Origin: Bacteroides sp. Marseille-P3684
GTDB lineage: Bacteria > Bacteroidota > Bacteroidia > Bacteroidales > Bacteroidaceae
Direction: 5' to 3'
Length of the DNA: 64,000 nucleotides
Assembly: GCF_900291465.1 (NCBI RefSeq)
Contig: NZ_LT985808.1
Coordinates: forward strand, 663,363 to 727,362
Of the stretch, positions 7,426 through 52,285 are shown one piece after another (positions within the stretch are counted from its first letter, which is position 1; the number at the start of each line of letters is the position of its first letter). The notes below the pieces were generated by a model, which saw only the letters and a program-made list of their open reading frames with translations, did no database searches and was not told the DNA's origin. The translations under genes were made by a program, and so were the position numbers.

Positions 7426-7984
7426 GGAATCACATTGACACCTTTTTCACGGTTTTAGCATCACATTTTCCCGTTTTGGCGTTTTCAGCTGACGCGTACT
7501 TTTACAATTTTCTCCCTTCCAGAAAATAGCACGTTAAATAGTTTAAGATACGTCCGTCTAAATGGACAGAAAATAATGTAATTTTACATAATTACACTCT
7601 TTCTAACGCATAAAAAGCGTCCGCCGCACCCATTTTTACCATCCGAAGCACCTGTGATTGGCTTCGTACGGACGCGTCCGCACCACCGTACCGACGTGTC
7701 CGCACCGTCGTAGTCGTTCGTCCGTACGAAAACAGTCCTCTGTTCTCATTTTTTAGAGCCCGAAGGGGCACGATTCCCGATGTGTGAAATTGCGTCCGTC
7801 CGTGTGAAAAGACCGACGGAAGGGAACGGACGAAACGAAAAAGGATACAGAAGGAAAGAGAACAGGCAAAAAGGCTGTCACGACGCAAAACGCAAATCGC
7901 CCGAAAAGGCGCTCCGTGCTCACCAACTCGTATTTTGGTGCAACGAAGCCCCTTCTCGGGCGATTCATTTGACGTTTTGACAAA
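7426..7984 (-). repeat. 559-bp interspersed element, copy 1
   Basis: This is one of five equal-length copies. The 5' end in the element's own direction is the complement of 7984 and has an intact TTTGTCAAAACG. The other end aligns base for base with the other copies but has lost most of its inverted repeat (GGAATCACATTG). It contains the conserved hairpin near the 5' end (about 7895-7965) and the CGTACGGACG-rich inverted region (about 7656-7735), of the subfamily shared with copies 2 and 4. It sits between the convergent FecR-like gene and RNase R. No gene is called inside it. Confidence 0.85.
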
Positions 7985-8001
7985 TTGACACAACCGCTTT
8001 T

Positions 8002-8166
8002 CAATTGACAATTGACAATGGACAATTGACAATTGAATCGGTGCCAACGAATAACGCCGGGCAATTGGACCGGGCGACCAGACCGGTCGCCCCTACATTC
8101 ACCGCCTTGGGGTCTCGTCGCCACGCCGCACGGCAATTGTCAATTGTCCATTGTCAATTGTCAATT
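8002..8166. repeat. Array / 33-bp palindrome / array cassette beside copy 1
   Basis: CAATTGACAATTGACAATGG-type tandem tracts at 8002-8035 and 8134-8166 flank one 33-bp GGACCGGGCGACC...CCCCTACATT unit at 8067-8099. Between unit and second array lies the recurrent TTCACCGCCTT / ACGCCGCA spacer. The cassette fills the gap between the 559-bp element and the RNase R stop codon. Confidence 0.85.
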
Positions 8167-8168
8167 AA

Positions 8169-10328
8169 TCAGGCTATCGTGAAGTCCAACTGTTTCTTCT
8201 CCAGGTTCGCGCGTGCCACTTTGATGCGCACCGGGTCGCCCAGGGAGAAACGTTTGTGGCGTTTCCGTCCGATGAGACAGTAGTTCTTCTCGTCGAAGTC
8301 GTAGTAGTCCTCCCCGAGGTCGCGCATGGGCACCATGCCCTCGCACTTGTTCTCGTTGATTTCCACATAGATGCCCCACTCCGTGATGCCGCTGATGGTC
8401 CCGTCGTACACTTCGCCGATGTGCTCGCTCATGAACTCCACCTGCTTGTACTTGATGCTCGCGCGTTCGGCAGAGGCAGCCACCTGCTCCATGTCCGAGC
8501 AGTGTTCGCACTTGTCCTCATACTTCTGCTGCTGCACGGAGCGTCCGCCGGCGAGGTAGCGCGTCAGCAGTCGGTGCACCATCAGGTCGGGATAGCGGCG
8601 GATGGGCGAGGTGAAGTGCGTGTAGTAGTCGAATGCCAGTCCGTAGTGGCCGATGTTGAACGTGCTGTAGCGCGCCTTCTGCATCGCCCGCAGCGAGACG
8701 GTCTCGATGAGGTTCTCCTCCTTCTTCCCCTGAATCTCGTCCAGCAGGTGGTTGAGCGAGCGCGACACGTCGGTCTTGGAGCCGGCAGTCTTCAGCTTGT
8801 AGCCGAACTTGACGATGAAGTTCTTCAGGTCCTCCAGCTTCTCCGGGTCCGGCAGGTCGTGGATGCGGTAGGGGAACACCTTCGGCTTGGCACCCCCGCG
8901 CACCTTGCCGATGCGCTCGGCAACCGTCCGGTTGGCAAGGAGCATGAACTCCTCGATGAGCTTGTGCGCGTCCTTCTGCACCTTGAAGTAGACGCTCAGC
9001 GGACGACCCGTCGCCTCGTCTATCTCGAAGCGCACCTCCATGCGGTCGAAGTTGATGGCGCCCGCTGCCATGCGCCGTTCACGCAGTATCTTGGCGAAGG
9101 TGTTGAGCTGCATCAGCTCGGCGGCATACTCGCCCTGACGTGCTTCCAGGATGTCCTGCACCTCCTCGTAGGTGAAGCGTCGGTTGCTCCGGATTACGGT
9201 GTGCGCGATGTGCGAGTCGCGGACGTTGCCCTTGTCGTCGATGCGGAAGATAACGGAGTACGCCAGCTTCTCCTCGTCGGGGCGCAGCGAGCAGATGAAG
9301 TTGCACAGCCGCTCGGGCAGCATCGGCACGGTGCGGTCCACGAGGTAGACTGACGTGGCGCGCTTGAACGCCTCCTTGTCGATGATGCTGCCTTCCTTCA
9401 CATAGTGGCTCACGTCGGCGATGTGCACGCCCACCTCCCACAGCCCGTCGCCGACACGGCGGATGGAGAGCGCGTCGTCAAAGTCCTTCGCGTCCTTGGG
9501 GTCGATGGTGAACGTCAGCACGTCCCTGAAGTCCTCGCGCTCCGCCAGGTCTTCCGCTGAAATCTCGGCAGGGATTTGCTCGGCGGCGCGTTCCACGTTC
9601 TCGGGGTAGGAGTAGGGCAGTCCGTACTCGGCGAGGATGGCGTGCATCTCGGTCGTATTGTCGCCCGCGCGCCCCAGCACGTCGATGACCTGCCCGATGG
9701 GGTTCTTCGCGTCGTCAGGCCACTCGGCGACCCGGACGACCACCTTGTCGCCGTCCTTCGCCCCCTTGAGCCGTTCCTTGGGGATGAAGATGTCGTTGGC
9801 GAGCGTCCGGCTCTCCGTCAGCAGGAAGGCGTAGTGGCGGTCGACCTTCAGCCGTCCGACGAAGGTGTCGTTGGCACGTTCGAGGATTTCGATGACCTCG
9901 CCCTCGCGCTCGCGGTTCTTGCGGCGGGCAAAGAGGGCGACGCGCACCTTGTCGTTGTTCATGGCGTGCGCCGAGTTGCGTTCCGCCACGAAGATGGGGG
10001 TGCTGCCGTCCTCGGGCAGGAGGGAGTTCTTCCCGTTGCTCTTGCGTTGGAACGTGCCCGTCACGATCTGGTCGGGGTTCTTGAGTTTGTAGCGCCCTTT
10101 CTCGGGTTCGCAGATGAAGTCGTCGGTGAGCATGTCCTGCAGGATGTCCAGGCACAGCATCTTGAGTGGGTGGGTGTTGAGCTTCAGTTCGGCATAGATG
10201 CGCTTGAGGCTGACGCTCTCGGGGGCGTTCAGCTGGATGAGGTCGGTGAGCTTTTCCACAAGCTGCTTCTTGGTCATCCGTTTGCCGCCCTTCTTTTCTT
10301 TCTTTACTTTCTTGTCTTTCTTTCCCAT
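8169..10328 (-). CDS. rnr: Ribonuclease R (RNB-family 3'-5' exoribonuclease)
   Basis: This 719-residue processive exonuclease degrades structured RNA and takes part in rRNA quality control. In order it has a lysine-rich start, a winged-helix-like N-terminus (about 18-85), cold-shock domains (about 88-225), the RNB catalytic domain (about 270-595) and a C-terminal S1 domain (about 640-717). The active-site cluster TIDPKDAKDFDDALS supplies Asp276, Asp282, Asp284 and Asp285. The length is typical. It is transcribed alone and converges on the FecR-like gene across copy 1 of the 559-bp element. It lacks the long C-terminal basic tail of the E. coli enzyme; the basic tract is at the N-terminus instead. 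Confidence 0.95.
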   Translation of the reverse strand: MGKKDKKVKKEKKGGKRMTKKQLVEKLTDLIQLNAPESVSLKRIYAELKLNTHPLKMLCLDILQDMLTDDFICEPEKGRYKLKNPDQIVTGTFQRKSNGKNSLLPEDGSTPIFVAERNSAHAMNNDKVRVALFARRKNREREGEVIEILERANDTFVGRLKVDRHYAFLLTESRTLANDIFIPKERLKGAKDGDKVVVRVAEWPDDAKNPIGQVIDVLGRAGDNTTEMHAILAEYGLPYSYPENVERAAEQIPAEISAEDLAEREDFRDVLTFTIDPKDAKDFDDALSIRRVGDGLWEVGVHIADVSHYVKEGSIIDKEAFKRATSVYLVDRTVPMLPERLCNFICSLRPDEEKLAYSVIFRIDDKGNVRDSHIAHTVIRSNRRFTYEEVQDILEARQGEYAAELMQLNTFAKILRERRMAAGAINFDRMEVRFEIDEATGRPLSVYFKVQKDAHKLIEEFMLLANRTVAERIGKVRGGAKPKVFPYRIHDLPDPEKLEDLKNFIVKFGYKLKTAGSKTDVSRSLNHLLDEIQGKKEENLIETVSLRAMQKARYSTFNIGHYGLAFDYYTHFTSPIRRYPDLMVHRLLTRYLAGGRSVQQQKYEDKCEHCSDMEQVAASAERASIKYKQVEFMSEHIGEVYDGTISGITEWGIYVEINENKCEGMVPMRDLGEDYYDFDEKNYCLIGRKRHKRFSLGDPVRIKVARANLEKKQLDFTIA

Positions 10329-10577
10329 AGCGGTAGAGGTTTATGGCATACGTTCCGCACGCCCGGTCCGTCGGTGTGTCTCCCGGTTGCCCGGTCCGTT
10401 GCGTTCCGGGCTTGCGGACGTCATGTTTGCAGTCTTCGGGTCCGTCGTCCGCATCCCCCGTTCCGGCGCGTCCGTCGGGAGGGACCACAGGCAGGTGCCG
10501 GGCGGACCCGATGTACAAAGTAAGTGATTTTCTGTGATAGTTCATGAGCAAAACGGGCTTATTTCAATAAGATGTCT

Positions 10578-10585
10578 TATCTTTG
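10578..10585 (+). promoter_or_regulatory. -7 box (TATCTTTG) of the SDR-PAP2 operon
   Basis: TATCTTTG lies 27 bases before the ATG of the SDR gene in the 284-bp divergent gap 10329-10612. The rest of that gap shows no other feature. Confidence 0.55.
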
Positions 10586-10612
10586 CAGCGAATTTGTAAC
10601 AAGAAGGCGAAA

Positions 10613-11620
10613 ATGAAGATACTCATCACCGGAGCCAGCGGCTTCATCGGAAGCTTCCTGGTCGAAGAGGCGCTCCGTCGCGGGATGGAGACCTGGGCAG
10701 GCGTGCGTGCGTCCAGCAGCCGCGCGTGGCTGCAGGATGCCCGTATCCGTTTCGCCGAGCTGGACTTGGGCGATGACCGCCGGCTGGAGGAGCAGCTGCG
10801 CCGCCACCGCGACACCGAGGGGGCATGGGACTATGTCATCCACTGTGCCGGGGCGACGAAGTGCCGCCGCAAGGAGGACTTCGACCGCATCAACTACGAC
10901 GCCACGTGCCGGCTCGTCCGTCTGCTCACGGAGCTGGGCATGGTGCCCCGGCAGTTCCTGTACATCAGTTCGCTGAGCGTCTACGGTCCCATCCATGAGA
11001 CCGACTACGCACCCATCTGCGAGCAGGACACCCCCCGCCCCGACACGGCTTATGGCAGGAGCAAGCTCCGTTCCGAGGAGTTCCTGCGCTCCACCCCCGA
11101 CAGTTTCCCCTACGTCATCTTCCGCCCCACGGGCGTGTACGGACCGCGCGAACGCGACTACTACCTCATGGCGCAGAGCATCAGCCGCCATCTGGACGTC
11201 GCAGTGGGCTTCCGCCGCCAGGACCTCACGTTCATCTACGTCAAGGACCTCGTGCAGGCTGTCTACCTGGCGATAGAGCGTGGCGTCACCCGCCGCGCCT
11301 ACTTCGTGAGCGACGGTCGGGTCTATTCGAGCCGTGCCTACTCCGACTACATCCGTGCCGAGCTGGGCAATCCCGCCGTCATCCGGCTCACCTTCCCCCT
11401 GGCGGTGCTCCGCGCCGTCTCGGTCGTGGCGGAGACGCTGGCAGGGCTGGCAGGGCGCAGCAGCACCCTCAACCGCGACAAGTATCACATTATGAAACAA
11501 CGAAACTGGCGTTGCGACATCACGCCCCTCGTCGAGGAACTGGGCTTCCGCCCTGCCTACGACTTGCAGCGGGGAGTGAGGGAGAGCATCGCCTGGTATA
11601 AACAACAAGGATGGCTTTAA
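10613..11620 (+). CDS. NAD-dependent epimerase/dehydratase (extended SDR)
   Basis: The protein is 335 residues starting at the ATG 27 bases past a TATCTTTG promoter box. The Rossmann motif TGASGFIG places glycines at 7, 10 and 13. The catalytic pair is Tyr147 and Lys151 (YGRSK), with Ser119/120 before it. The family acts on nucleotide sugars or, in some bacteria, on lipid intermediates such as oxidised ceramides. Its last 10 bases overlap the start of the PAP2-type gene, so the two are probably translationally coupled. A role in lipid rather than sugar metabolism is inferred from that partner only. Confidence 0.82.
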   Translation: MKILITGASGFIGSFLVEEALRRGMETWAGVRASSSRAWLQDARIRFAELDLGDDRRLEEQLRRHRDTEGAWDYVIHCAGATKCRRKEDFDRINYDATCRLVRLLTELGMVPRQFLYISSLSVYGPIHETDYAPICEQDTPRPDTAYGRSKLRSEEFLRSTPDSFPYVIFRPTGVYGPRERDYYLMAQSISRHLDVAVGFRRQDLTFIYVKDLVQAVYLAIERGVTRRAYFVSDGRVYSSRAYSDYIRAELGNPAVIRLTFPLAVLRAVSVVAETLAGLAGRSSTLNRDKYHIMKQRNWRCDITPLVEELGFRPAYDLQRGVRESIAWYKQQGWL

Positions 11621-12600
11621 ACTTACTCCAACGTACGGAAACACGCCGTGGGCTGTTTCCCATCGAGGTGGTCAGCCTCGCCTACGGGGCACTGACCACC
11701 GTGCTCATATTGTTCCTTCACGAACGCATGGACCACCCGTTGACGATGGTCCTCGAACGCATCGGCATTGCCGTGATCACGGTGTTGCTCCTGCTCATCT
11801 ACCAGCGCTACTCGTGCAAGCTCACGAGCTTCCTGCGCACGCTCTTCCAGCTCGGGCTGCTCGCCTACTGGTATCCGGACACCTACGAGTTCAACCGTCT
11901 CTTCCCCAACCTCGACCACCTCTTCGCCCACAGCGAGCAGGTGCTCTTCGGGTGCCAGCCCGCCATCGAGTTCAGCCGGCTGTTGCCGTCGGTGGGATGG
12001 AGCGAGGCGTTCAACCTGGGCTACTTCTCCTACTACCCGATGATAGCAGCCGTGGTGCTGTTCTACTTCATCGCGCGTTACCGTGAGTTCGACCGCACGG
12101 CGTTCGTCGTGCTGACGTCGTTCTTCATCTATTACCTTATATATATATTCGTCCCCGTCGCCGGACCACAGTACTACTTCCCCGCCATCGGGCTGGACGA
12201 AGTGGCGTTGGGACACTTTCGCGCCGTGGGCGACTACTTCAACCACCACTCCGAGCTGCTGTCTGCCCCGGGCGATGCCCAAGGCTTCTTCTACGGACTG
12301 GTGGAGATGTCCCAACAGGCGGGCGAACGCCCGACGGCGGCTTTCCCGAGCTCGCACGTGGGTATGTCCACCATCCTGATGCTCCTCGCGCTGCGTACCC
12401 GCAACCGTGTGCTTCCGCTGGTACTCCTGCCGTTCTACGTCCTGCTGTGCTGTGCGACGGTCTACATCCAGGCGCACTACCTCATCGATGCCCTCTGCGG
12501 CTTCGTCTCCGCCTTCGTGGTCTACGCCCTCGCTGTGAGTGCCTACCGTTTTTTCCTGCTCCGCGGAGCGTCGCTCCGTGAGGTGAAGGTGGAGAGCTGA
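11611..12600 (+). CDS. PAP2-superfamily membrane phosphatase / phosphotransferase
   Basis: This 329-residue protein has about seven membrane segments and the lipid-phosphatase signature. PTAAFPSSHVG carries His249, and YIQAHYLIDALCG carries His289 and Asp293. The overall form, with long loops before the PSSH motif and the VPVAGPQYYF stretch, resembles Aur1/inositol-phosphoceramide synthase-like members more than small undecaprenyl-PP phosphatases. The ATG lies inside the end of the SDR gene. Candidate substrates are sphingolipid or phospholipid head groups. This is an inference; the PAP2 family call itself is firm. Confidence 0.82.
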   Translation: MALNLLQRTETRRGLFPIEVVSLAYGALTTVLILFLHERMDHPLTMVLERIGIAVITVLLLLIYQRYSCKLTSFLRTLFQLGLLAYWYPDTYEFNRLFPNLDHLFAHSEQVLFGCQPAIEFSRLLPSVGWSEAFNLGYFSYYPMIAAVVLFYFIARYREFDRTAFVVLTSFFIYYLIYIFVPVAGPQYYFPAIGLDEVALGHFRAVGDYFNHHSELLSAPGDAQGFFYGLVEMSQQAGERPTAAFPSSHVGMSTILMLLALRTRNRVLPLVLLPFYVLLCCATVYIQAHYLIDALCGFVSAFVVYALAVSAYRFFLLRGASLREVKVES

Positions 12601-12636
12601 CGAGCCACGCACACATCCACTTAACTACATACTACT

Positions 12637-14010
12637 ATGAGAAAGTACCTTTGCTTACTGCTGCTCCCCCTGCTGCTCGGTGCCTGCGCTTCGAGCCGGG
12701 AGGAAGCCCCCATGCCCTACTCCCAGCGCATGGTCGAGTCGCACGGACTGGGCGACTTCTACTGCAACCGCCATCACCAGGCGAAGCTGGACACCACCGG
12801 ATGGGACTACGTGTCCGGACTCGTTGCCAACGCCGTCCTGAAGGCATGGCAGCTCTATCCCGAGAAGACTGCCTACTATGACGCCGTCAAGGCATTCGCC
12901 GACCACAACACCAATGCCGACGGGTCGATGATACTCAGCAAGAAGGGCACCTCCGCCCTGCGCCCGAGCAACATCGACGACCTCCCCGCGGGCAACATCT
13001 ACTTCACCCTCTACCGCGAGGAGATGCGCAAGGGCAACACCCAGGATGCCGAACGTTACCGACGCGCCGCCACCCTCATCCGCAACACCCTCAAGTACAA
13101 CCATTCGCGTATTGCCGAAGGACTGCCCGGCGCCGGCGGATTCTTCCACAAGGCGACTTACCCGAACCAGATGTGGCTCGACGGACTGTTCATGGGCTCG
13201 CCCATCTACGCCCAGTGGCAGTACACCTTCGGTGCCGACAGTGTGGACAACAATAACGAGAGCTGGAGCGACATCGCCCTTCAGTTCAAGACCATCCACC
13301 GCTACACCTATAACCCCGAGAAGCAACTGAACTACCACGCCTGGTCCGCCACGCCCGACGCGCCGGACTCCTTCTGGGCGAACAAGGAGGAACCCTTCAA
13401 GGGATGCAGCCCCGAGTTCTGGGCACGCGGCATGGGCTGGTACTTTGCCGCGCTGGTCGACGTGCTGGAGTTCATGCCTCGCGAGCACCCCGACCGTGCC
13501 GCCGTCGACTCCATCCTGCAACAGGTGGCTGCCGGCGTCGCCCGCTGGCAGGACCCGCAGAGCGGCGTGTGGTATCAGCTCATGCAGTATGACGCCACGA
13601 AGACTGCCGACGGCAAGGGCGACACCGTGGATGGCGAGACCTACAACGTGGGCACCGCCCCCAACTACCTCGAAGCGTCCGCCTCGGGCATCTTCACCTA
13701 CGCCTTCCTCAAAGGAATCCGACTGGGCCTGCTCGACGCTGCTACCTACCGTCCCGTGGCAGAGAAAGCCTATGCCGGTCTGCTCAAGACCTTCATCCGG
13801 GAGAGCGACGGGCGGACGGACATCGTGCGTACCTGCGCTTCCGCCGGACTCGGTCCGCAGAAGAACCCCTCCCGCACCGGTACGGTGAACTACTACCTCT
13901 GCGGTAAGGACGTGACCATCGTGGAGAACGAAGGCAAGGCTATCGGCACGTTCATCCTGGCGTCCGTCGAATACGAACAGAGCAAGCAACAGGACACGAC
14001 AGACAAGTGA
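12637..14010 (+). CDS. Glycoside hydrolase family 105 lipoprotein (unsaturated glucuronyl / rhamnogalacturonyl hydrolase)
   Basis: This 457-residue protein has a lipoprotein signal (LLLGAC, Cys17), so it is exported and membrane-anchored. The (alpha/alpha)6 barrel motifs of GH105 are visible: YPNQMWLDGLFMG, FWARGMGWYFAALVDVLE and YLEASASGIFTYAFLKGI. The family removes the unsaturated uronic acid left at the non-reducing end by pectin or other polysaccharide lyases. No lyase, SusC/D pair or regulator is adjacent, so it stands outside a classical PUL. It starts 36 bases after the PAP2 gene, possibly in the same transcript. The 79-nt structured element begins 3 bases after its stop. Confidence 0.88.
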   Translation: MRKYLCLLLLPLLLGACASSREEAPMPYSQRMVESHGLGDFYCNRHHQAKLDTTGWDYVSGLVANAVLKAWQLYPEKTAYYDAVKAFADHNTNADGSMILSKKGTSALRPSNIDDLPAGNIYFTLYREEMRKGNTQDAERYRRAATLIRNTLKYNHSRIAEGLPGAGGFFHKATYPNQMWLDGLFMGSPIYAQWQYTFGADSVDNNNESWSDIALQFKTIHRYTYNPEKQLNYHAWSATPDAPDSFWANKEEPFKGCSPEFWARGMGWYFAALVDVLEFMPREHPDRAAVDSILQQVAAGVARWQDPQSGVWYQLMQYDATKTADGKGDTVDGETYNVGTAPNYLEASASGIFTYAFLKGIRLGLLDAATYRPVAEKAYAGLLKTFIRESDGRTDIVRTCASAGLGPQKNPSRTGTVNYYLCGKDVTIVENEGKAIGTFILASVEYEQSKQQDTTDK

Positions 14011-14012
14011 CC

Positions 14013-14091
14013 ACTTCCCCCTTCGGGGATACATGCACGGACACGCCTCCAGGGACTATCTTCCTTGGGGGCGTGTCTGCTTATGTATGCC
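14013..14091 (+). repeat. 79-nt structured intergenic repeat, copy A
   Basis: It aligns without gaps to 18070-18148. A small CCCC/GGGG hairpin (CCCCCTTCGGGG) is followed by a long stem GGACACGCCTCCAGGG with its partner ending in GGCGTGTC, and an outer ATACAT / ATGTAT pairing. No T-run follows, so it is not a simple terminator. The short reading frame that crosses it (14033-14224) is not a credible gene. Confidence 0.75.
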
Positions 14092-14247
14092 GACTGTCCG
14101 CCGGACGGACATGTCCGTGGAAAGGCTGTTGACCGTCCGTCCGGTCACACGAATGCAACAGGACTGTTACGGTAGCTTAAAAGTCGTGAAAGACGGATGT
14201 AACACGAACGGTGTTTCTTTGTAGCGTCAAAACATAAACGCAAGCAA

Positions 14248-17049: not shown

Positions 17050-17094
17050 GGCCATCAACTGACAAAGCTTTATTAACAATCAAACAAAACCCTT

Positions 17095-18042: not shown

Positions 18043-18069
18043 CCGGCAATGGCTGATTGACACTTGACA

Positions 18070-18148
18070 ACTTCCCCCTTCGGGGATACACACATGGACA
18101 CGCCTTCAGGGACCATCACCCCTGGAGGCGTGTCTGCCTGTGCATGCC
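18070..18148 (+). repeat. 79-nt structured intergenic repeat, copy B
   Basis: This is the second member of the pair with 14013-14091, on the same strand, 28 bases after the phosphoesterase stop. The stem GCCTTCAGGG pairs with CCCTGGAGGC through one T-G wobble. The outer stem uses C-G where copy A has T-A. The two copies enclose the receptor-phosphoesterase unit as direct repeats. Confidence 0.75.
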
Positions 18149-18179
18149 GTTTTCGCGCCGGAAGGGCATTGTCGATAGT

Positions 18180-21053: not shown

Positions 21054-21612
21054 TTTGTCAAAATGTCAAATGAATCGCCCGAGAAGGAGCTTCCTTGCAC
21101 CAAAATACGAGTTGGTGACCACGGAGCGCCTTCTCGGGCGATTTGCGTTTTGCACTGTGACAGCCTTTTTGCCTGTATCCTTTCCTTCTGTATCATTTTT
21201 CGTTCCGTCCGTTTCCTTCCGTCGGTCTTTTCACACGGAAGGACGCAATTTCACACATCGGGAATCGTGCCCCTTCGGTCTCTAAAAAATGGGGACAGAT
21301 GGCTGTTTTCGTACGGACGAACGACCACGACGGTGCGGACACGTCGGTACGGTGGTGCGGACGCGTCCGTACGAAGCCAATCACAGGTGCTTTTGACCGT
21401 GTTGATGGGTGCGACGGATGGTTTTTCTGTGTTAGAAAGGGTGTAATTGTGTGAATAACGATTTATTTTGATGTGTTCTGACGGACGTATCTTAAAATAT
21501 TTAACGCGCAATTTTCTAATTGGGACAAATTTGCGGATTTGTGCGTTACCTGAAAACGGCAAATTGGGAAATTGTGATGTTAAAATGGGGAAAACGATGT
21601 CATTGTGACAAA
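21054..21612 (+). repeat. 559-bp interspersed element, copy 2
   Basis: Ends are TTTGTCAAAATG (21054-21065) and CATTGTGACAAA (21601-21612), matching at 11 of 12 positions when inverted. It has the 15-bp first hairpin and the second-region variant ending GGACGCGTCCGTACGAA, shared with copies 1 and 4. It sits between the convergent GATase-dipeptidase and VTT-domain genes. Open frames inside lack codon-position bias and are not called. Confidence 0.9.
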
Positions 21613-21623: not shown

Positions 21624-21723
21624 GGACCGGGCGACCCGACCGGTCGCCCCTACATTCGCCGCCTTGTGGTCATATCCATACGCCGCAAGGTAATTGTCAA
21701 TTGTCCATTGTCAATTGTCAATT
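21624..21723. repeat. 33-bp palindrome and CAATTG array after copy 2
   Basis: The unit at 21624-21656 reads ...GACCCGACCGG... (C where most copies have A). The array at 21691-21723 overlaps the last codons of the VTT-domain gene and encodes its IDN-stop end. Confidence 0.85.
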
Positions 21724-30487: not shown

Positions 30488-30731
30488 CAATTGACAACGT
30501 TTCAATTGACAATTGACAATGGACAATTGACAATTTCCGTGCGGCGTGAGGACGAGACCATAAGGCGGTGAATGTAGGGGCGACCGGTCTGGTCGCCCGG
30601 TCCAATTGCCCGGCGTTATTCGTTGGCACCGATTCAATTGTCAATTGTCCATTGTCCATTGTCAATTGCCCTGCGGCATGTGTGCGCATCCGTTCATTGG
30701 ACCGGGCGACCAGACCGGTCGCCCCTACATT
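30481..30731. repeat. Double array / double palindrome cassette before copy 3
   Basis: Array 30481-30534, 33-bp unit 30571-30603 (forward), array 30635-30668 and unit 30699-30731 (reverse) alternate over 250 bp. This is the largest cassette in the window. From 30699 to the start of copy 3 the sequence nearly matches the flank of copy 5, differing by one substitution and a two-base indel. Confidence 0.87.
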
Positions 30732-30772
30732 TTGAGAAATGTTTTGTTGATGCGGTCCGACGTTTTTATCAA

Positions 30773-31331
30773 TTTGTCAAAACGTCAAATGAATCGCCCG
30801 AGAAGGGGCTTCCTTGCACCAAAATACGAGTTGGTGACCGCGGAGCGCCTTCTCGGGCGATTTGCGTTTTGCATCGTGACAGCCTTTTTTCCTGTTCTCT
30901 TTCCTTCTGTTTAGCTCTTCTCTTCCTTTGTTCCCTTCCGTCGGTCTTTTCACACGGACGGACGCAATATCACACATCCGGAATTGCGCTCCTTCGGGCT
31001 CTAAAAAATGGGGACAGGGGACTGTTTTCGTACGGACGAACGACCACGACGGTGCGGACACGTCGGTACGACGGTAGTCGTTCGTCCGTACGAAGCCAAT
31101 CACAGGTGCTTCGGGTGGTGAAAATGGGTGCGGCGGACGCTTTTTCTACGTTAGAAAGCGTGTAATTGTGTAAAGTTACGTTATTTTCAGTCTGTTTAGA
31201 TGGACGTATCTTAAAATATTTAACGCGCTATTTTCTGGGAGGGATAAAATTGCGAAAGTACGCGTCAGCTGAAAACGCCGAATCGGGAAAATGTGATGTT
31301 AAAATCCGGTAAATGGTGCCGTTTTGACAAA
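30773..31331 (+). repeat. 559-bp interspersed element, copy 3
   Basis: This has the best-preserved ends: TTTGTCAAAACG (30773-30784) and its exact inverse (31320-31331). First hairpin: 15-bp perfect stem 30792-30806 / 30848-30862, enclosing CACCAA/TTGGTG. Second hairpin: 18-bp perfect stem 31027-31044 / 31077-31094, the subfamily shared with copy 5. It lies between the convergent thioredoxin-like and DUF3108 genes, 27 bases from the latter's stop. Confidence 0.92.
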
Positions 31332-37002: not shown

Positions 37003-37561
37003 TTTGTCAAAGTGATACCGTTTTCCCAGTTTTAACATCATAATTTCCCGATTTGCCGTTTTCAGGTAACGCACAAATCCGCAAATTTGTCCCAATTAGA
37101 AAATTGCGCGTTAAATATTTTAAGATACGTCCGTCAGAATGCATTAAAATAAACTGTTATTCACACAATTACACTCTTTATAACATAGAAGAACCATCCG
37201 CCGAACCCATTTTCACCATCCGAAGCACCTGTGATTGGCTTCGTACGGACGCGTCCGCACCACCGTACCGACGTGTCCGCACCGTCGTAGTCGTTCGTCC
37301 GTACGAAAACAGCCATCTGTCCCCATTTTTTAGAGCCCAAAGGGGCATGATTTTCGATGTGTGAAATTGCGTCCGTCCGTGTGAAAAGACCGACGGAAGG
37401 GAACGGATGGGAGGGGAAAGGAGACAGAAGGAAAGGAAACCGACGGAAAGGCTGTCACGGTGCAAAACGCAAATCGCCCGAGAAGGCGCTCCCTGCTCAC
37501 CAACTCGTATTTTGGTGCAAGGAAGCCCCTTCTCGGGCGATTCATTTGACGTTTTGACAAA
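37003..37561 (-). repeat. 559-bp interspersed element, copy 4
   Basis: The plus-strand left end is TTTGTCAAAGTG and the right end is CGTTTTGACAAA (37550-37561). The first-hairpin arms are intact (around 37460-37545), and the second region belongs to the copy 1/2 subfamily. It lies between the convergent phosphofructokinase gene and a broken minus-strand gene. One internal frame stops a few codons earlier than in the other copies. Confidence 0.9.
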
Positions 37562-43215: not shown

Positions 43216-43223
43216 GACGGGGC

Positions 43224-43733: not shown

Positions 43734-43822
43734 AGTCTTTGGTTTTATAGTGAATTGATGTTTTTGCATGCGGTTGGCGGAACGGACGGACCCGGTCAGG
43801 GACGGCACATCGCCCGTCCGCG

Positions 43823-44440: not shown

Positions 44441-44453
44441 ACAGCAAAGCGGT

Positions 44454-45923: not shown

Positions 45924-45942
45924 GAATAGTGGTTTAGCGAGG

Positions 45943-45950
45943 CAAAGTTA
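45943..45950 (-). promoter_or_regulatory. -7 box (TAACTTTG) of the rpoN operon
   Basis: TAACTTTG on the minus strand, 19 bases before the rpoN ATG, implies a very short leader. No clear -33 element was seen. Confidence 0.5.
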
Positions 45951-45978
45951 GCGAATTTTTGTGTGCACGTATGTACTT

Positions 45979-47019
45979 TCAGGCAATAATCCCTCCGCCC
46001 AGCACGCGGTCGCCCCGGTAGAATGCGGCGGCCTGTCCGGGGGCAATGGCGGTGAGGGGTTCGTGGAGGCGGACGTGCAGGCGTCCGTCGGGGAGGAGGG
46101 TGACGGTGGCGCGGTTGAGCTGCTTGCGGTAGCGTATCCGGACGTCGACGTCGGAGCGGCCGAGCACGTCGTCGGGGCGGACCACGCGCCAGTCGGTGAG
46201 CACCATCTCCCGGCGTTCGAGCGAGGAGAGGGGTGAGAGCGTGACGCGGTTGGTCGTCGGGTCGATGTCCTTCACGAAGACGGGACGGTTGAGCCAGAGT
46301 CCCAGTCCGCGCCGCTGCCCGATGGTGTAGAACGGGTAGCCCTCGTGCCTGCCCAAGGGCGTGCCGTCCTCATCGTAGAACCAGCCCGGGCGGATGCGTC
46401 CGTCGGCAACCCGTGCACGGAGGTACGGACGGTAGTCTCCGGGGCAGAAACACACGCCCAGGCTGTCGCGCTTGACGGCTGCCTTGCGCAACCCGCGTTC
46501 TGCCGCGAGACGGCGTACCTCCGCCTTCGTCCGTCCGCCCATGGGGAGCACCATCCGGCGGATGACCTCCTGAGGCAGACCCCAGAGGAAGAAGGACTGG
46601 TCCTTGTCGGGGTCGGCTCCGCGGACGATGTAGTGCCGTCCGCCGTCGTTCACGGTGCGGACGTAGTGTCCCGTTGCCACGTGGGGGATGCCCTCGCGGT
46701 CGGCGACCCGGCAGAGGAGGGGCCACTTCAGCAGGTTGTTGCACAGGGTGCAGGGCACGGGTGTGCGTCCCGCCAGGTACTCGCGGACGAAGTAGTCCTC
46801 GACCGTCTGCCTGAACACCTCGCGGGCGTCGTAGGTCAGGTGACGGATGCCCAGCTGTGCCGCCACCTCGCGGGCATCGTCCAGGTAGGCGGTGTCGCCT
46901 TCGTCCTCGTGGAAGCGGAAGGTGATGCCCGTCACCTCGTAGCCCTGCTCCTGCAAAAGAAGGGCGGCAACCGAACTGTCAGTGCCGCCGCTCATTCCCA
47001 GCAATACGCCCTTGCCCAT
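45979..47019 (-). CDS. mnmA: tRNA-specific 2-thiouridylase
   Basis: This 346-residue protein thiolates U34 of Lys, Glu and Gln tRNAs. The N-terminal PP-loop GMSGGTDSS (residues 8-16) activates the base with ATP. The conserved thiol pair is probably Cys93 (PCTLCN) and Cys190 (LGVCFCPG). The C-terminal part is the beta-barrel domain. The adjacent SufE-like gene, 3 bases upstream, could deliver sulphur to it. Bacteroidales often have two MnmA paralogs, so this may be one of two. Confidence 0.93.
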
Positions 47020-47022
47020 CCG

Positions 47023-47451
47023 TCAGCTGTTCATTGCCTTGAAGGCGAGGGCGTACATGCGCATCTGCTTGACCATTGCCAGCAGTCCGTTGCTGCGCGT
47101 GGGCGAGAGGTGCTCCTTCAACCCGATGCGGTCGATGAAGTACAGGTCGGCGTTGAGGATTTCGTCCGGTGTATGGTCGGACACCACACGGATGAGCAGG
47201 GCGACGATGCCCTTGACGATGAGCGCGTCGCTCTCCGCCTGGAAGTGCACCTTCCCGTCGATGAGGTCGGCTTGCAGCCACACACGGCTCTGGCAGCCCT
47301 CGATCAGGTTGGAATCCGTCTTGTAGGCTTCGTCCAGGGGAGCCTGTTCATTGCCCAGGTCGATGAGCAGTTGGTATCTGTCCATCCAGTCGTCGAAGTC
47401 ACTGAACTCGGCGATGACTTCGTCTTGTAGTTCGTTTATTGTCATAGTCAT
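47023..47451 (-). CDS. sufE: SufE-family cysteine desulphurase activator
   Basis: This 142-residue protein has the SufE fold signature NLIEGCQSRVWLQADL, with the sulphur-accepting cysteine at residue 53. It takes persulphide sulphur from a SufS-type desulphurase and passes it on to an Fe-S scaffold or another acceptor. It lies 3 bases upstream of mnmA, suggesting coupling of sulphur supply to tRNA thiolation. A second ATG two codons in is an alternative start. The 169-bp gap upstream to the M28 peptidase (47452-47620) shows nothing else. Confidence 0.92.
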   Translation of the reverse strand: MTMTINELQDEVIAEFSDFDDWMDRYQLLIDLGNEQAPLDEAYKTDSNLIEGCQSRVWLQADLIDGKVHFQAESDALIVKGIVALLIRVVSDHTPDEILNADLYFIDRIGLKEHLSPTRSNGLLAMVKQMRMYALAFKAMNS

Positions 47452-47620
47452 AAGAAAGTGGTTTCAGTTGGAAAGGAACAGCAGGCAAGGAGCCACGGCC
47501 GTCCCGTGGCGGTCAGCGGACACCTGTATATATAAGGTAAGGGCGTCCGTTCGTCCCGGGTGTGCCGGCACGCCGCCGGAGCAACGTCCGGTTGTCCATG
47601 CTCCCTTGTCCCTTGCAAGG

Positions 47621-48628
47621 TTATTTCTCGTTGTACACCACGTGGAGGACGGTCTGTCCCACTGCCTGCAAGGTGGCGCGGTCGATGACGTCCATGTTGT
47701 CGTCGAGCGTATGCCAGAAGTTGCCGAAGCTCGACAGCTCGTCGGTCAGTGAGCAGTTGATGATGTCGATGCACGGGATGCGTGCGATCTCATTCACCGG
47801 ACCGTGGTCGTCGTTCACGTAGCCGCCGTCCTCGTCGATGAAGTAGTTCCCGAAGCCCAGCTTGGCGGCAGCCTTCCACACCTTCTTCACCACGGACGGA
47901 GCATGCTGCATGGAGTAGCCCTCACGCAGGAAGGTCGCCCCCTTGCCGCCCACCATGTCGAGGAGGATGCCGAAGCGTGCATTGTAGCCCTGCACGTGGG
48001 GAGCCCGTGCCCAGTATTGCGAGCCCAGGCACCAGGTGTGGCTGTCGTCGCCCATGGATGAGGCGAACTGCGGGGTGCCGGAGTCCTCCATGTCGAAGAA
48101 GATGATGTCGACACCGATGGCGGGAGCCTGCTGTTGCAGCTGGCGCGCCACTTCGAGCAGCACGCCCACTCCGCTGGCGCCGTCGTTCGCGCCCAGGATG
48201 GGCTTGTGGTGGTTTGCCTCGTCGGGGTCGTTGTCTGCCCACGGACGGGTGTCCCAGTGTGCGCAGAGCAGTACGCGCCGCTTGGCATCGGGGTTGAACG
48301 CGCCGATGATGTTGCGTGCCTTGAGCGTCTTGCCGTCATAGCCCGTCAGGTCGGCACGCTGGTTGTAGACCTTCGCGCCGAAGGACTCCAGCCGTGCGGC
48401 CAGGTAGTCACCGCAGAGGTCGTGCGCCCGGCTGTTCGGTGTGCGCGGACCGAAGTCCACCTGTTGCTTGACGTAGAGGTAGGCACTGTCGGCATTGAAG
48501 GCAGGCACCTGCACCGCCTTCTCCGTCGTCTCTCCTTCGGCAGCCGATGTTTTCTTGCTGTTGGCACACGAGAGGCATCCCAATGCCACCGTGGCGCAGA
48601 CGAGCATCATGTAGTTGCGTATCTTCAT
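47621..48628 (-). CDS. M28-family zinc peptidase / glutaminyl-peptide cyclotransferase-like lipoprotein
   Basis: This 335-residue protein has a lipoprotein-type signal (ALGCLSCANS, lipidation at about Cys21). Zinc-ligand motifs of the M28 fold are in order: LLCAHWDTRPWAD, ILGANDGASGVGVLLEVA, FFDMEDSG and a late DDHGPV. It matches the bacterial glutaminyl cyclase / aminopeptidase group, which cyclises N-terminal glutamine of exported proteins or trims peptides. In Bacteroidota, Gln often follows the signal cleavage site, making cyclase activity plausible. A TATCTTTG box (complement of 48663-48670) lies about 35 bases upstream. Confidence 0.88.
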   Translation of the reverse strand: MKIRNYMMLVCATVALGCLSCANSKKTSAAEGETTEKAVQVPAFNADSAYLYVKQQVDFGPRTPNSRAHDLCGDYLAARLESFGAKVYNQRADLTGYDGKTLKARNIIGAFNPDAKRRVLLCAHWDTRPWADNDPDEANHHKPILGANDGASGVGVLLEVARQLQQQAPAIGVDIIFFDMEDSGTPQFASSMGDDSHTWCLGSQYWARAPHVQGYNARFGILLDMVGGKGATFLREGYSMQHAPSVVKKVWKAAAKLGFGNYFIDEDGGYVNDDHGPVNEIARIPCIDIINCSLTDELSSFGNFWHTLDDNMDVIDRATLQAVGQTVLHVVYNEK

Positions 48629-48662
48629 AACGATGTGTTTGATTAGCCGTTTGGATTTCCTG

Positions 48663-48670
48663 CAAAGATA
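48663..48670 (-). promoter_or_regulatory. -7 box (TATCTTTG) of the M28 peptidase gene
   Basis: TATCTTTG on the minus strand lies about 35 bases before the ATG. The -33 region lacks a clear TTG. Confidence 0.5.
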
Positions 48671-48749
48671 AGGCGTTTCTCCGTGCCTGCCTGTCGAACC
48701 GTCCGTTTTTTATAAGGATGAAAGATTATTTTACGGAGCTTACGCTCCT

Positions 48750-48783
48750 TAATTGATAATTGACAATTGACAATTGACAATTG
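48750..48783. repeat. Solo CAATTG-type array
   Basis: Five tandem AATTGACA-type units followed by the CCTTTCGGCGTG spacer and GGCGGCGAACGTG, a degenerate start of the 33-bp unit that is itself absent. It lies in the 294-bp gap 48629-48922. Two short reading frames here are not genes. Confidence 0.75.
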
Positions 48784-48839
48784 CCTTTCGGCGTGTGCCT
48801 CCACCCGTGAGGCGGCGAACGTGCATCGCCATCAAGAAG

Positions 48840-48880
48840 AAAGGAGGTCCTTGCCCGTTGCGGGGCAGGAGACCTCCTTT
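48840..48880 (-). terminator. Terminator of the FKBP operon
   Basis: AAAGGAGGTC (48840-48849) pairs perfectly with 48871-48880, with an inner TGCCC/GGGCA stem. It starts about 40 bases past the FKBP lipoprotein stop. Confidence 0.85.
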
Positions 48881-48922
48881 CAAAATGCATGTTGGAATTA
48901 CCGAAGGCAACGCCTGCGGATT

Positions 48923-49804
48923 TTATTTCTTATCGTCCTTTACGATTTCGAGCAGTTCAACCTCGAAGACGAGCGTAGAGAACGGCTTGATTTTGCCTGT
49001 TTCACGTGAGCCGTAAGCCAGTTCCTGCGGAACGAAAATCTGCCACTTCGAGCCGACGGGCATCATCATCAGAGCCTCAGTCCAGCCCTTGATGACCTGG
49101 CTGACGCCGAAGGTAGCCGGTGTATTGCGTTTGTAGGAGCTGTCGAACTCGGTGCCGTCGATGAGCGTACCCTTGTAGTTCACCTTCACGCGGGCATCGG
49201 CAGCAGGCACTTCGCCCTTGCCTTCCACGAGCACCTTGTACTGCAGGCCGCTCGGAGTGGTCTTGACACCTTCCTTCGTCTTGTTCTCGGCGAGGAACTT
49301 CTCGTTGGCAGCCTTGTATTCGGCGTATGTCTTGGCGAGGTAGTCCGACTTGATGCGCTCCATGTTGTTCTGCAGGTAGTTCATCGCGCTGTCCATGTCC
49401 ATCATCATGCCCTTGTTGTCCTCCATGGCGGCAGCGATGAAGGCAGCGAGGAAGTTGTCATCGTTCACCACGCGGACAGAGTCGTTGCCGCTCAACTCGT
49501 AGTTGAAACGGTCAATCATCCCCTTCACCTGCTGTCCGATCTGGATGCCGGCGTAGTAAGCCTTCTGCTTCTCATCCTCGGAAGCCTTCACACCCGTCTT
49601 CAGACCGCGGATGAAGTCCTTCATCTGAGTGGAGTCGATGCCCATCTGCTGCTCCAGGTAGGGGCGCAGACCGCGGGTGTTTGCCACACCGGCTGCATAC
49701 GACAGGGTGTCGACGCCGGACTTGAACGTGGCTGTGGGAGCGTTGCCGGCGCATGAAGCGAAGAGGCCTGCGGCGGCAATCAATGCAATACCTAACTTTT
49801 TCAT
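48923..49804 (-). CDS. FKBP-type peptidyl-prolyl isomerase lipoprotein
   Basis: The protein is 293 residues from MKKLGIALIAAAGLFASCAG, a lipoprotein signal with lipidation at about Cys18. Residues 30-185 are an FkpA-like helical dimerisation domain. Residues 195-290 form the FKBP domain with VKVNYKGTLIDGTEFDSS, FGVSQVIKGWTEAL and LAYGSRE. It folds exported proteins at the membrane. The longer open frame upstream overlaps the second FKBP gene and is rejected. It is 47 bases downstream of that paralog; the pair probably came from duplication. Confidence 0.93.
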   Translation of the reverse strand: MKKLGIALIAAAGLFASCAGNAPTATFKSGVDTLSYAAGVANTRGLRPYLEQQMGIDSTQMKDFIRGLKTGVKASEDEKQKAYYAGIQIGQQVKGMIDRFNYELSGNDSVRVVNDDNFLAAFIAAAMEDNKGMMMDMDSAMNYLQNNMERIKSDYLAKTYAEYKAANEKFLAENKTKEGVKTTPSGLQYKVLVEGKGEVPAADARVKVNYKGTLIDGTEFDSSYKRNTPATFGVSQVIKGWTEALMMMPVGSKWQIFVPQELAYGSRETGKIKPFSTLVFEVELLEIVKDDKK

Positions 49805-49851
49805 TTGTTTATCTGTTTGTTTTGATTTGTAGTTCTTTGTCTGTGCGCGCA

Positions 49852-50436
49852 TCAGAGCACCTCGATGAGCTCGACCTCGAAGATGAGCACGCTGTGGGGC
49901 GGAATCATCGCGCCTGCCCCTGCTGCGCCGTAACCCAGTTCGGAGGGGATGTAGAGCTTCCACTTCGCCCCTTCGCTCATCAGCTGGAGGGCTTCCACCC
50001 ATCCCTTGATGACCTGGTTCACGCCGAAGACGGCAGGTTCGCCGCGCTGGATGGAGCTGTCGAAGAGGGTGCCGTCTATGAGCGTTCCCTCGTAGTGGCA
50101 GCGCACCTGGTCGGTGGCTTTCGGACGTTTGCCGTTGCCCTCGCGGATGACCTCGTATTGCAGTCCGCTGGGGAGCACCTTCACGTTCGGGTTGTTCTTG
50201 TTGGCTTCGAGGAACGCCTTGCCCTTCTCGATGTTTTCGGCGTTCATCCGTTCTTCGAGCTTCTCGAAATATTCGTTGACTATCTGGCGGGCTTCGGTGT
50301 GCGAGATGGCAGGCTCGGCACCCGTGAGAACGTCCTTGACTGCCTGTGCGAAGTCCTCGACGTTCAGGTCCGCCGTTCCCATGCCTTTCAGGTTCTGGCC
50401 AATGCCCAACCCGATGGAGTAACTGAATTTATCCAT
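49852..50436 (-). CDS. FKBP-type peptidyl-prolyl isomerase
   Basis: This 194-residue protein has a short FkpA-type N-terminal helical part (about 1-85) and an FKBP domain (about 90-193: VRCHYEGTLIDGTLFDSS, FGVNQVIKGWVEAL, LGYGAAGAG). No signal peptide is visible (MDKFSYSIGLGIG), so this paralog is probably cytoplasmic, unlike its lipoprotein neighbour. A TACCTTTG -7 box (complement of 50489-50496) lies about 53 bases upstream. Confidence 0.93.
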   Translation of the reverse strand: MDKFSYSIGLGIGQNLKGMGTADLNVEDFAQAVKDVLTGAEPAISHTEARQIVNEYFEKLEERMNAENIEKGKAFLEANKNNPNVKVLPSGLQYEVIREGNGKRPKATDQVRCHYEGTLIDGTLFDSSIQRGEPAVFGVNQVIKGWVEALQLMSEGAKWKLYIPSELGYGAAGAGAMIPPHSVLIFEVELIEVL

Positions 50437-50488
50437 GTCTGTTTCCTTACTTAGTTGTTTTGAGACTGTGATTCTTGTTGAAACGGTG

Positions 50489-50496
50489 CAAAGGTA
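50489..50496 (-). promoter_or_regulatory. -7 box (TACCTTTG) of the FKBP operon
   Basis: TACCTTTG on the minus strand in the divergent gap to the sirtuin gene. No matching -33 element was identified. Confidence 0.5.
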
Positions 50497-50540
50497 GCTG
50501 AATATTTGCAGTTAACGAGTGGGTCACAATGATTTTTTCA

Positions 50541-50548
50541 TAATTTTG
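50541..50548 (+). promoter_or_regulatory. -7 box (TAATTTTG) of the sirtuin gene
   Basis: TAATTTTG lies 31 bases before the ATG and is followed by an AAGGAGGAA-like ribosome site. A -33 TTG is not evident. Confidence 0.45.
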
Positions 50549-50579
50549 CCTTTAATCACCAAACAAGGAGGAATCATTC

Positions 50580-51287
50580 ATGAAAAAGCAAAAGATTGTG
50601 CTGCTGACGGGCGCGGGCATGAGTGCCGAAAGCGGCATCAAGACGTTCCGCGACTCCGACGGGTTGTGGGAGAACTACCCGGTGCAGCAGGTCGCCAGCA
50701 TCGAAGGCTACGAGGCGGACCCCGGTCTGGTGCTGGACTTCTACAACGCGCGTCGCGCGGAGCTGCTGCGCACCGAGCCGAACCACGGTCACCGGATGGT
50801 GGCGGCGTTGGAGCAACACTTTGACGTCACGGTCGTGACACAGAACGTGGACAACCTGCATGAGCGTGCCGGCAGTTCGCACGTCATCCACCTGCACGGC
50901 GAGCTGATGAAGGCGACCTCCAGCCGCAACCCGAACGACCCGTCGTGCATCTGCGACATCGACCCCGCCAGGCCCGTCATCCGCCTGGGAGACAAGGCTG
51001 CCGACGGCTCGCAGCTGCGTCCGTTCATCGTGTGGTTCGGCGAGGCAGTGCCCCGTTTTGAGGATGCCATCGCGGAAGCCGAGACTGCCGACATCTTCGT
51101 CATCATCGGTACGTCGATGCAGGTCTATCCCGCCGCCGGACTCGTCCGTTACATCCGTCCCGGCGTGCCCGTCTACGTCATCGACCCGAAGGCGGTTGCG
51201 GTCCACAGCGCATCGCCCGTGCACACCATTACCAAGGGCGCATCCGACGGAATGGACGAACTTTTCAAAATGTTGTTAAAAGAATGA
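50580..51287 (+). CDS. cobB: Sir2-family NAD-dependent protein deacylase
   Basis: This 235-residue protein has the NAD-binding [14 protein letters not shown] (about 11-24), [12 protein letters not shown], and the catalytic histidine in HLHGELMK. The class III signature Tyr55-x-x-Arg58 (YNARR) suggests preference for succinyl or malonyl lysine. The zinc-ribbon region keeps only one Cys-x-Cys (SCICDI) in place of four cysteines, so zinc may be absent. The start is preceded by a good Shine-Dalgarno (AAGGAGG). It is transcribed alone, towards rubredoxin. Confidence 0.9.
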
Positions 51288-51363
51288 CGACCATTCGGAA
51301 GTATTTACTTCCTTTGTCGTGTCCAAAATTAAAACGATTACAAACCATTTAGCTAACGAACTT

Positions 51364-51528
51364 ATGAAGAAGTACATTTGCACTGTATGTGACTGGGTTT
51401 ACGACCCCGAGGTAGGTGATCCCGAAAGCGGCATTGCTCCGGGCACTGCGTTTGAAGATATTCCCGAAGACTGGGTATGCCCCGTCTGCGGCGTTGGAAA
51501 GGAAGACTTCCAGGTTGTAGAGGATTAA
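51364..51528 (+). CDS. Rubredoxin
   Basis: This 54-residue iron protein starts at [11 protein letters not shown]. The four iron-ligating cysteines are Cys6, Cys9, Cys39 and Cys42, in the normal CxxC...CPxCG pattern. It transfers electrons, probably for oxygen or peroxide detoxification in this anaerobe; no rubrerythrin is adjacent. An in-frame extension to 51319 covers the likely promoter and is rejected. A clear terminator follows. Confidence 0.97.
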
Positions 51529-51558
51529 AGTTAAGATTTCTACCCATCCAAGGGCGTG

Positions 51559-51606
51559 CGGGCTCGTGCGACATCTCCCGACCGGAGAGTTGCACGGGCC
51601 CGTTTT
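51559..51606 (+). terminator. Terminator of the rubredoxin gene
   Basis: CGGGCTCGTGC (51559-51569) pairs with GCACGGGCCCG (51592-51602) with one wobble. An inner TCTCC/GGAGA stem is present, and TTTTC follows. Confidence 0.85.
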
Positions 51607-51660
51607 CATTTGGCAGGTTGCCTTGCCGTGTGACATGAAGGCCGAAAACACAAGGCGGTG

Positions 51661-51693
51661 AATGTAGGGGCGACCGGTCTGGTCGCCCGGTCC
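51661..51693. repeat. 33-bp palindromic unit before copy 5
   Basis: A typical AATGTAGGGGCGACC...GGTCC unit preceded by AAGGCGGTG. There is no CAATTG array on this side. A variable 33-bp stretch separates it from copy 5. Confidence 0.85.
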
Positions 51694-51726
51694 AACAAAC
51701 GAACACGCCACATCCAACAAGACCCA

Positions 51727-52285
51727 TTTGTCAAAACGACATCGTTTCCCCGTTTTTAACATCACAATCTCCCGATTTGTCGTTTTCAGCTAACGCACAT
51801 TTTTGCAATTTCGTCCCAATTAGAAAAACGCGCGTTAAATATTTTAAGATACGTCCGCCAAAACGCATTAGAATAAACCTATATTCACACAATTATACCG
51901 TTTCTAACGCAAAAAAGGCATCCGCCGAACCTGTTTTCACGGTTAAAAGCACCTGTGACTGGCTTCGTACGGACGAACGACTACCGTCGTACCGACGTGT
52001 CCGCACCGTCGTGGTCGTTCGTCCGTACGAAAACACCCACCTGTCCCCATTTTTTAGAGACCGAAGGGACACGATTCCGGATGTGTGAAATTGCGTCCGT
52101 CCGTGTGAAAAGACCGACGGATGGAAACGCGAAAAGAGAAAAAGACCGCAGAAAGAAAAGAAACCGACGGAAACCCCGACAACATGAAAAACACAAACCG
52201 CCCGAAAAGGCGTTCCCTGCTCACCAATCCGTATTTTGGCGCAACGAAGCCCCTTATCGGACGGTTCATTTGACATTTTGACAAA
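51727..52285 (-). repeat. 559-bp interspersed element, copy 5
   Basis: The plus-strand ends are TTTGTCAAAACG (51727-51738) and CATTTTGACAAA (52274-52285). The second hairpin has the 18-bp perfect arms of copy 3 (51964-51981 / 52014-52031). The first hairpin carries C-G where all other copies have T-A, a compensatory change, plus mispairs. It is the only copy not between convergent genes: rubredoxin ends to its left, and a PepSY-like gene starts to its right on the same strand. Confidence 0.92.

Follow-up and report, generated by a model that had tools for sequence, protein, structure and literature searches.

Noc- and SlmA-binding sites are short palindromes, miniature inverted-repeat transposable elements (MITEs) are gene-free intergenic sequences of ~600 bp or less with inverted ends and many copies, and curved DNA is known from clusters of A-tracts at 11-bp steps. 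Noc has about 70 palindromic sites, none of them at the terminus (PMC4331003). Repetitive extragenic palindromic (REP) sequences, bacterial interspersed mosaic elements (BIMEs) and REP doublets forming hairpins (REPINs) are mosaic intergenic palindromes with more than 100 copies per genome (PMC2817692, PMC3116915), REPs measuring 20–40 bp (PMC3733652). Here, we analyzed a 64,000-nucleotide stretch of Bacteroides sp. Marseille-P3684 (hereafter the window, C1:663363-727362 on the host chromosome C1 of 3.708 Mb), which carries five interspersed 559-bp repeats. These repeats represent one subfamily of ~110 dispersed elements that would act as double-stranded DNA. Our best explanation, to which we assign a probability of roughly 0.45, is that a mobile-derived element has been kept as rigid double-stranded docking sites for a putative protein, working like Noc or SlmA sites.

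An earlier sequence-only reading of the window had described five copies of identical length, separated by many substitutions and bounded by inverted TTTGTCAAAAYG-type ends, and had predicted a high genome-wide number. The coordinates and strands of the five intervals (Table 1) were correct, with end-to-end alignments over 559 bp each and zero internal gaps, and the other four copies are 84–91% identical to the copy at 21054 (E 8e-168 or smaller). The edges are generally sharp and TTTGTCAAAAYG-type sequence is present at both ends in most copies of this subfamily (type A); the description of the ends fails for copy 7426-7984, whose match to the reference copy stops at base 555 and which is devoid of the final TTTGACAAA-type bases. 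No uniform similarity, as expected from a segmental duplication, was found past the ends, where only other short repeats common to some copies occur; the 559-bp length is therefore not an artefact of boundary choice. Altogether, the dispersed, non-coding and inverted-ended nature of the repeats, as well as the constraint on their length, was borne out, and so was the predicted abundance, with 23 type-A copies and ~112 copies of the left module on the chromosome.

These 23 type-A copies display pairwise identities of 71–91% (median 80%), and 17 of them (the reference included) are gap-free when compared to the reference; three of the six gapped copies share an alternative 3′ end, and the others have a 1-bp deletion, one additional 22-bp unit, or a gap of one base close to the 3′ end. 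Using a 38-copy model of the 106-bp left module, we obtained 147 host matches (E <= 0.1), corresponding to 112 distinct places after dropping opposite-strand matches to the same place, with a match weaker than E 0.001 at only two of them (910164 and 3564037). A second model, built from 107 copies and leaving out five truncated or degenerate ones, recovered the same places among the matches listed (by-eye comparison), including the five left-out copies at E 2e-7 or better, and one additional fragment at 460647. Type B accounts for 78/112 places, with AAACA-N4-TGTTT arrays of at least three strong units, types A and A2 for 27 places with two or more CGTCCGTACG-type half-sites, while place 1261256 is one further A2 assigned by alignment and six places are truncated, degenerate or interrupted. 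Type-B copies have diverged further, with identities of 43–97% over the element columns (median 54%, or 51% when the flank is counted too), a median nearest-neighbour identity of 71%, and a few copy pairs more than 90% identical. Types A and B are also regionally biased, since 20/27 A-type arrays fall within 0.63–1.03 Mb.

Full elements measure about 560–600 bp and follow the same order, i.e., a ~106-bp left module with TGTCAAA repeats, an unconserved spacer, a short conserved block, an array of 3–5 palindromic units, conserved blocks, and a right module (GCGTTAGCTGAAA plus a TGACA-type end). The unit-to-unit step is 22 bp in 231/235 cases, and type A keeps this step with a different palindrome. 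Median type-B identity drops to 0.32 in the spacer (columns 110–195), with the array at 0.74 and the left module at 0.70. Nevertheless, the array starts at 291–295 or 313–316 in 73/78 type-B copies, that is, within about 2 bp of modal slots located one 22-bp slot apart, and at 302–304 (a shift of ~+10 bp) in the other five. The tail anchors, scored in 100/112 places, were found at 471 (2 places), 480–485 (36, centred on 482), 490–494 (55, centred on 492), 502–504 (6, centred on 503) and 515 (1), and the type-A tail lies at 481–483 in 25/27 scored copies. The fixed length between the modules is a firm observation, and the anchor positions are suggestive of a helical-turn step. The left module, the palindrome array and the right module would thus be held in register by spacers conserved in length and not in sequence.

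Genes were predicted with our own simple hexamer script instead of a standard gene finder, and with an assumed element length of 580 bp, places whose overlap with a predicted gene exceeded 120 bp were flagged: such overlap was seen at 0/108 unflagged places, the four flagged ones being one copy interrupted by an insertion sequence and three solo left modules. Among the 69 places with both flanks predicted (the other 43/112, with a flank missing from the predictions in the retrieved sequence, were left out of this count), 24 lie between convergent, 16 between divergent and 29 between tandem genes, against 22, 14 and 87, respectively, for background gaps of at least 50 bp. No gap shorter than 5 kb separates the 112 places, compared to 16.5 such gaps on average (minimum 6) over 2000 rounds of jittering each copy by up to 60 kb, a null that lets copies fall outside intergenic gaps. 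In the dense zone at 0.63–1.03 Mb, the 24 gaps between 25 copies have a coefficient of variation of 0.61 (0.27 without two gaps larger than 30 kb), compared to 0.94 for random sets, 1.1% of which match the regularity of all 24 gaps together; apart from the two larger gaps, they range from about 7 to 22 kb and average ~14 kb. Conversely, the zone at 1.90–2.72 Mb, picked after the gap was seen, holds 4 copies when 24.7 are expected (p 3e-8), and the largest single gap reaches 299 kb (p 0.01 under uniform placement). Because of this hole and of the dense zone, the gaps are not more even than random over the whole chromosome (coefficient of variation 1.11). The origin and terminus were inferred from the skew, which switches from negative to positive at about 0.55–0.63 Mb and reverses at about 2.25–2.34 Mb. 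This polarity is backed by two rRNA operons, one at 3.62 Mb on the minus strand and one at 1.68 Mb on the plus strand (the latter taken from a tRNA-Ile/Ala pair as operon spacer), and by the right-arm tRNA genes, 9/10 of those seen being on the expected strand. The elements themselves are randomly oriented (54/112 with the fork).

Such 22-bp palindrome arrays in a fixed register, together with the even spacing and the terminus depletion, favour double-stranded DNA sites. More specifically, protein-docking DNA is favoured because old copies keep distances and not spacer sequence, are nearly all intact, are evenly placed and lie away from the terminus. A non-autonomous mobile element would have spread after the lineage split from its sisters, and each copy may now serve as a docking platform, with dimers of a putative DNA-binding protein aligned on one face of the helix. 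Proteins on the end modules would then form a nucleoprotein complex with the array-bound dimers, and the copies may serve as landmarks for chromosome organisation or division-replication coupling, like Noc or SlmA sites. It is tentatively proposed, as one joint claim, that ~110 multi-palindrome platforms with a fixed helical register constitute a chromosome-wide landmark system, read by a putative dimeric loop-anchoring or division-restraining protein. In this system, the platforms would be separated by at least 5 kb, placed at near-regular intervals (~14 kb) in one zone on the origin side and nearly excluded from the terminus; they would derive from a mobile element within a single lineage, with A and B specificities differing by region, a constant 22-bp geometry, and copies evolving like a recombining population.

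Several observations weigh against docking sites of this kind. The minimum spacing by itself is compatible with target immunity. Only 1/4 of the left-arm tRNA genes seen are on the expected strand, predicted genes are slightly anti-codirectional (46% codirectional), leaving the skew-defined terminus unsupported by gene-strand bias, and dnaA lies at 2.947 Mb, with dnaA and ParB within 2.93–2.95 Mb. Many register classes are shifts by one 22-bp array slot and one class differs by 8–9 bp, so that the helical-turn argument stands on few independent events. As for a binder, HTH_ParB gave one strong and one weak match in the host and none was identified, TetR-type proteins not being part of the search; since all 15 same-genus genomes, host included, have one strong match each (G003 a second at 7e-12), the ParB content of the host is not special. 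Among the matches listed, only one true left module was found in 14 same-genus relatives, and the elements are therefore not essential to the genus. Finally, type-A RNA folds strongly, the sense strand being lower in energy in 23/23 copies (mean z −5.6 vs −4.3, with the sense z lower in 21/23), compared to 12/18 other 640-base stretches.

DNA searches gave zero matches in 60 relatives, plasmids, phages and E. coli, and the exact 35-base type-A pattern was found 0 times in genome_contigs. The first left-module model gave two weak matches in 150 other family genomes, of which the one in G141 was rejected as a terminator-like hairpin by eye; the one in G003 is a genuine left module (E 4e-12 with the second model) with no array or tail adjoining. 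With this second model, among the matches listed, only G003 and G010 (E 0.013) responded within the 14 same-genus genomes. An empty orthologous site was found for the copy at 30773, with ~130 bp between the matching genes in the sister genome G003 vs ~940 bp here, an excess partly made up of repeats other than the element; the two remaining copies of this stretch sit at synteny breaks.

This empty site and the inverted ends are expected from a purely selfish MITE-like non-autonomous transposon family moved by a transposase elsewhere, which we consider possible, although less likely than the docking reading. Its modules would be transposition cis-sites, its spacing would reflect target immunity (a random-parking process with a ~7–10 kb exclusion zone), and selection would account for the intergenic placement. 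The dense-zone gaps, the two larger ones excepted, would suit such a parking process, and an array-less copy at C1:3564037 (L147), by eye a deletion derivative that kept both end modules, as well as three solo left modules (L116, L143 and L144), also agree with it. However, no consistent target-site duplication was found over many boundary offsets in 18/23 type-A copies (five with altered ends were left out), and no gene was found inside any copy read, the genome not being screened for transposases. The MITE-like passenger suggested by the sequence-only reading is thus supported in part, by its inverted ends and its empty site; the duplication and a gene-bearing copy were not found. Moreover, the copies are not the homogeneous products of a recent burst. 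Old copies mostly keep modules and register when dead copies should gather indels, and the sharp terminus depletion would be unexpected for a selfish element.

That the elements are genes for structured non-coding RNAs, forming a large family, appears improbable, even though it would account for the strong sense-strand folding given above and for the many one-sided changes that retain G-U pairs in the left-module hairpin. Indeed, two-sided changes affect only 6/102 predicted consensus pairs, and among the 120 top-scoring column pairs of the 78 type-B copies, mostly standard pairing was seen in 14, without stacking, the mutual information reflecting mostly subfamily structure. The left stem is gone in many copies (by eye), a fixed length of unconserved spacers would be unusual for RNA genes, and Rfam returned no element match (window at gathering score; eight loci at E <= 0.1, with rRNA as the sole match). 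Of the long structured RNA or DNA element initially suggested, the RNA option is thus weakened by the lack of an Rfam match and of stacked covarying helices in 78 copies, and the evidence points to DNA. The elements show no codon periodicity, no Pfam match at E <= 1 and a best PHROGs match of 0.11. An open 35-residue frame in the left module, stop-free in 77/86 ungapped copies (of 107) and with a higher synonymous share than the other frames (0.29 vs 0.18 and 0.22), was rejected as coding because variability is not raised at its third positions, Pfam is empty and the PHROGs match concerns another frame; a decayed ancestral frame is still conceivable.

Variants are shuffled among copies and are nearly unlinked beyond 40–80 bp. 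In type A (23 copies, 158 biallelic sites), linkage measured as the squared correlation (r2) falls from 0.35 at 1–2 bp to 0.05 beyond 80 bp, with all four combinations in 9456/12403 site pairs, and in type B (78 copies) from 0.23 to 0.025. As a control, two simulated recombination-free families (median identity 91% and 75%) kept r2 at 0.17–0.20 and 0.41–0.47 beyond 10 bp; the first gave 0.36, 0.21 and 0.14 at 1–9 bp, from few pairs. Repeated change contributes to this shuffling, because 52/271 type-A sites with two or more common states have three or more; the simpler explanation, short of proof, is that blocks are exchanged locally, by gene conversion or templated change. In addition, copies 21054-21612, 37003-37561 and L030:18561-19119 fall at synteny breakpoints relative to both sister genomes (G003 and G008). 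That the elements are inter-copy recombination sites, with chromosome rearrangement as their role or main effect, would agree with this unlinking and with the breaks at a copy in the first 20-kb stretch (2/3 for G003 and 3/4 for G008, from our own reading of match lists), but is very improbable given that 1/3 copies of that stretch lie in unbroken synteny with G003, that 1/2 and 2/5 breaks, respectively, lie at a copy in the second stretch, that some breaks may be contig ends, and that ordinary gene conversion or repeated same-site change can produce the shuffling.

Table 1. Type-A copies and their parts in the window (window positions)
Feature	Position	Strand	Basis or remark
Copy 1, type A	7426..7984	-	alignment; final TTTGACAAA-type bases absent at the 3′ end
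Copy 1, left (5′) module	7879..7984	-	alignment of 107 copies
Copy 1, array of three 22-bp units, CGTACGGACG|CGTCCGTACG-type palindrome	7663..7728	-	
Copy 1, right-module anchor, GCGTCAGCTGAAA type	7482..7502	-	
Copy 2, type A	21054..21612	+	alignment
Copy 2, left module	21054..21159	+	alignment of 107 copies
Copy 2, array, 3 x 22 bp	21310..21375	+	
Copy 2, right-module anchor	21536..21556	+	
Copy 3, type A; intergenic site empty in sister genome	30773..31331	+	alignment
Copy 3, left module	30773..30878	+	alignment of 107 copies
Copy 3, array, 3 x 22 bp	31029..31094	+	
Copy 3, right-module anchor	31255..31275	+	
Copy 4, type A	37003..37561	-	alignment
Copy 4, left module	37456..37561	-	alignment of 107 copies
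Copy 4, array, 3 x 22 bp	37240..37305	-	
Copy 4, right-module anchor	37059..37079	-	
Copy 5, type A	51727..52285	-	alignment
Copy 5, left module	52180..52285	-	alignment of 107 copies
Copy 5, array, 3 x 22 bp	51964..52029	-	
Copy 5, right-module anchor	51783..51803	-	

Note that the type-A half-sites of these arrays occur in two main states (e.g., window 31029-31094), and a unit-3 variant resembles the reverse complement of unit 1, as though copied from it. Many copies are flanked by a REP-like palindrome, GGACCGGGCGACC...GGTCGCCCCTACATT, and by ATTGTCAATTGTCC repeats (e.g., window 30560-30770 and 21625-21690), and short pieces of such flanking sequence are also matched at several positions in G003 and G008. 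Elsewhere on the chromosome, the copy at C1:965201 (L038) is broken after its left module by an apparent insertion sequence, with its interior partly masked. Two candidates for an autonomous copy, 1840518 and 2926981, with no right module nearby, turned out to be a solo module and a degenerate copy. A 6S-like RNA (Bacteroidales-1, L130:1507-1681) lies directly before the copy at C1:2954834.

Array-only loci were also seen. In the host, three of them (L179, L180 and L181, at C1:128404, 148720 and 335294) hold by eye some twelve 22-bp palindromic units belonging to several kinds (AAACACAAGTGTTT, AAGTATAATACTT), and the second model found no left module there. Similar loci with another palindrome at 22-bp steps occur in G003 (two loci) and G008 (three loci); L153 (G003) and L156 (G008) are arrays of AAACAC-N4-GTGTTT-like units at 22-bp steps, and L154 (G005) is a 22-bp array that is apparently non-palindromic. 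As regards a viral link, the single exact 18-base match among viral contigs (L301) was judged on reading to be unrelated sequence, the array pattern gave 0 matches, and a protein scan of viral contigs for a flanking gene found nothing.

To our knowledge, chromosome marking and organisation remain poorly known in Bacteroidota. Drifting spacers with kept distances, a bead-like spacing and near-absence from the terminus would provide a direct handle on chromosome organisation, and the array could be used as bait for finding a binding protein. If the elements are selfish, they would still be an unusually clear case of between-copy spacing on a chromosome. No description of the element family was found among the top results of the open-licence literature searched, which is no proof of absence, and the same results gave no description of a chromosome-wide landmark system of the kind tentatively put forward here.

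When compared to known systems, the elements resemble MITEs in being inverted-ended, gene-free, ~600 bp or less, intergenic and multicopy. They differ in that no target duplication was seen, that old diverged copies retain inner architecture and length, and that no partner transposase was found in a genome not screened for transposases. As with REPs, BIMEs and REPINs, they are mosaic intergenic palindromes with more than 100 copies, but they are long fixed-register units of 560–600 bp and not sequences of 20–40 bp. Type-B arrays recall curved DNA and its 11-bp A-tract clusters, with AAA and TTT at 11-bp steps, whereas type-A arrays are GC-rich and A-tract-free and still keep 22-bp steps. Membership of the Noc or SlmA systems is not claimed because no binder was identified. 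The sites of Noc (Bacillus subtilis) and SlmA (Escherichia coli) are likewise tens of dispersed palindromes that cover most of the chromosome and spare the terminus (PMC4331003). Dispersed palindromic sites and terminus depletion (4/112 vs 24.7) are both found here, with the difference that 3–5 palindromes at 22-bp steps are carried inside a 560–600-bp unit with conserved ends, each unit at least 5 kb from the next.

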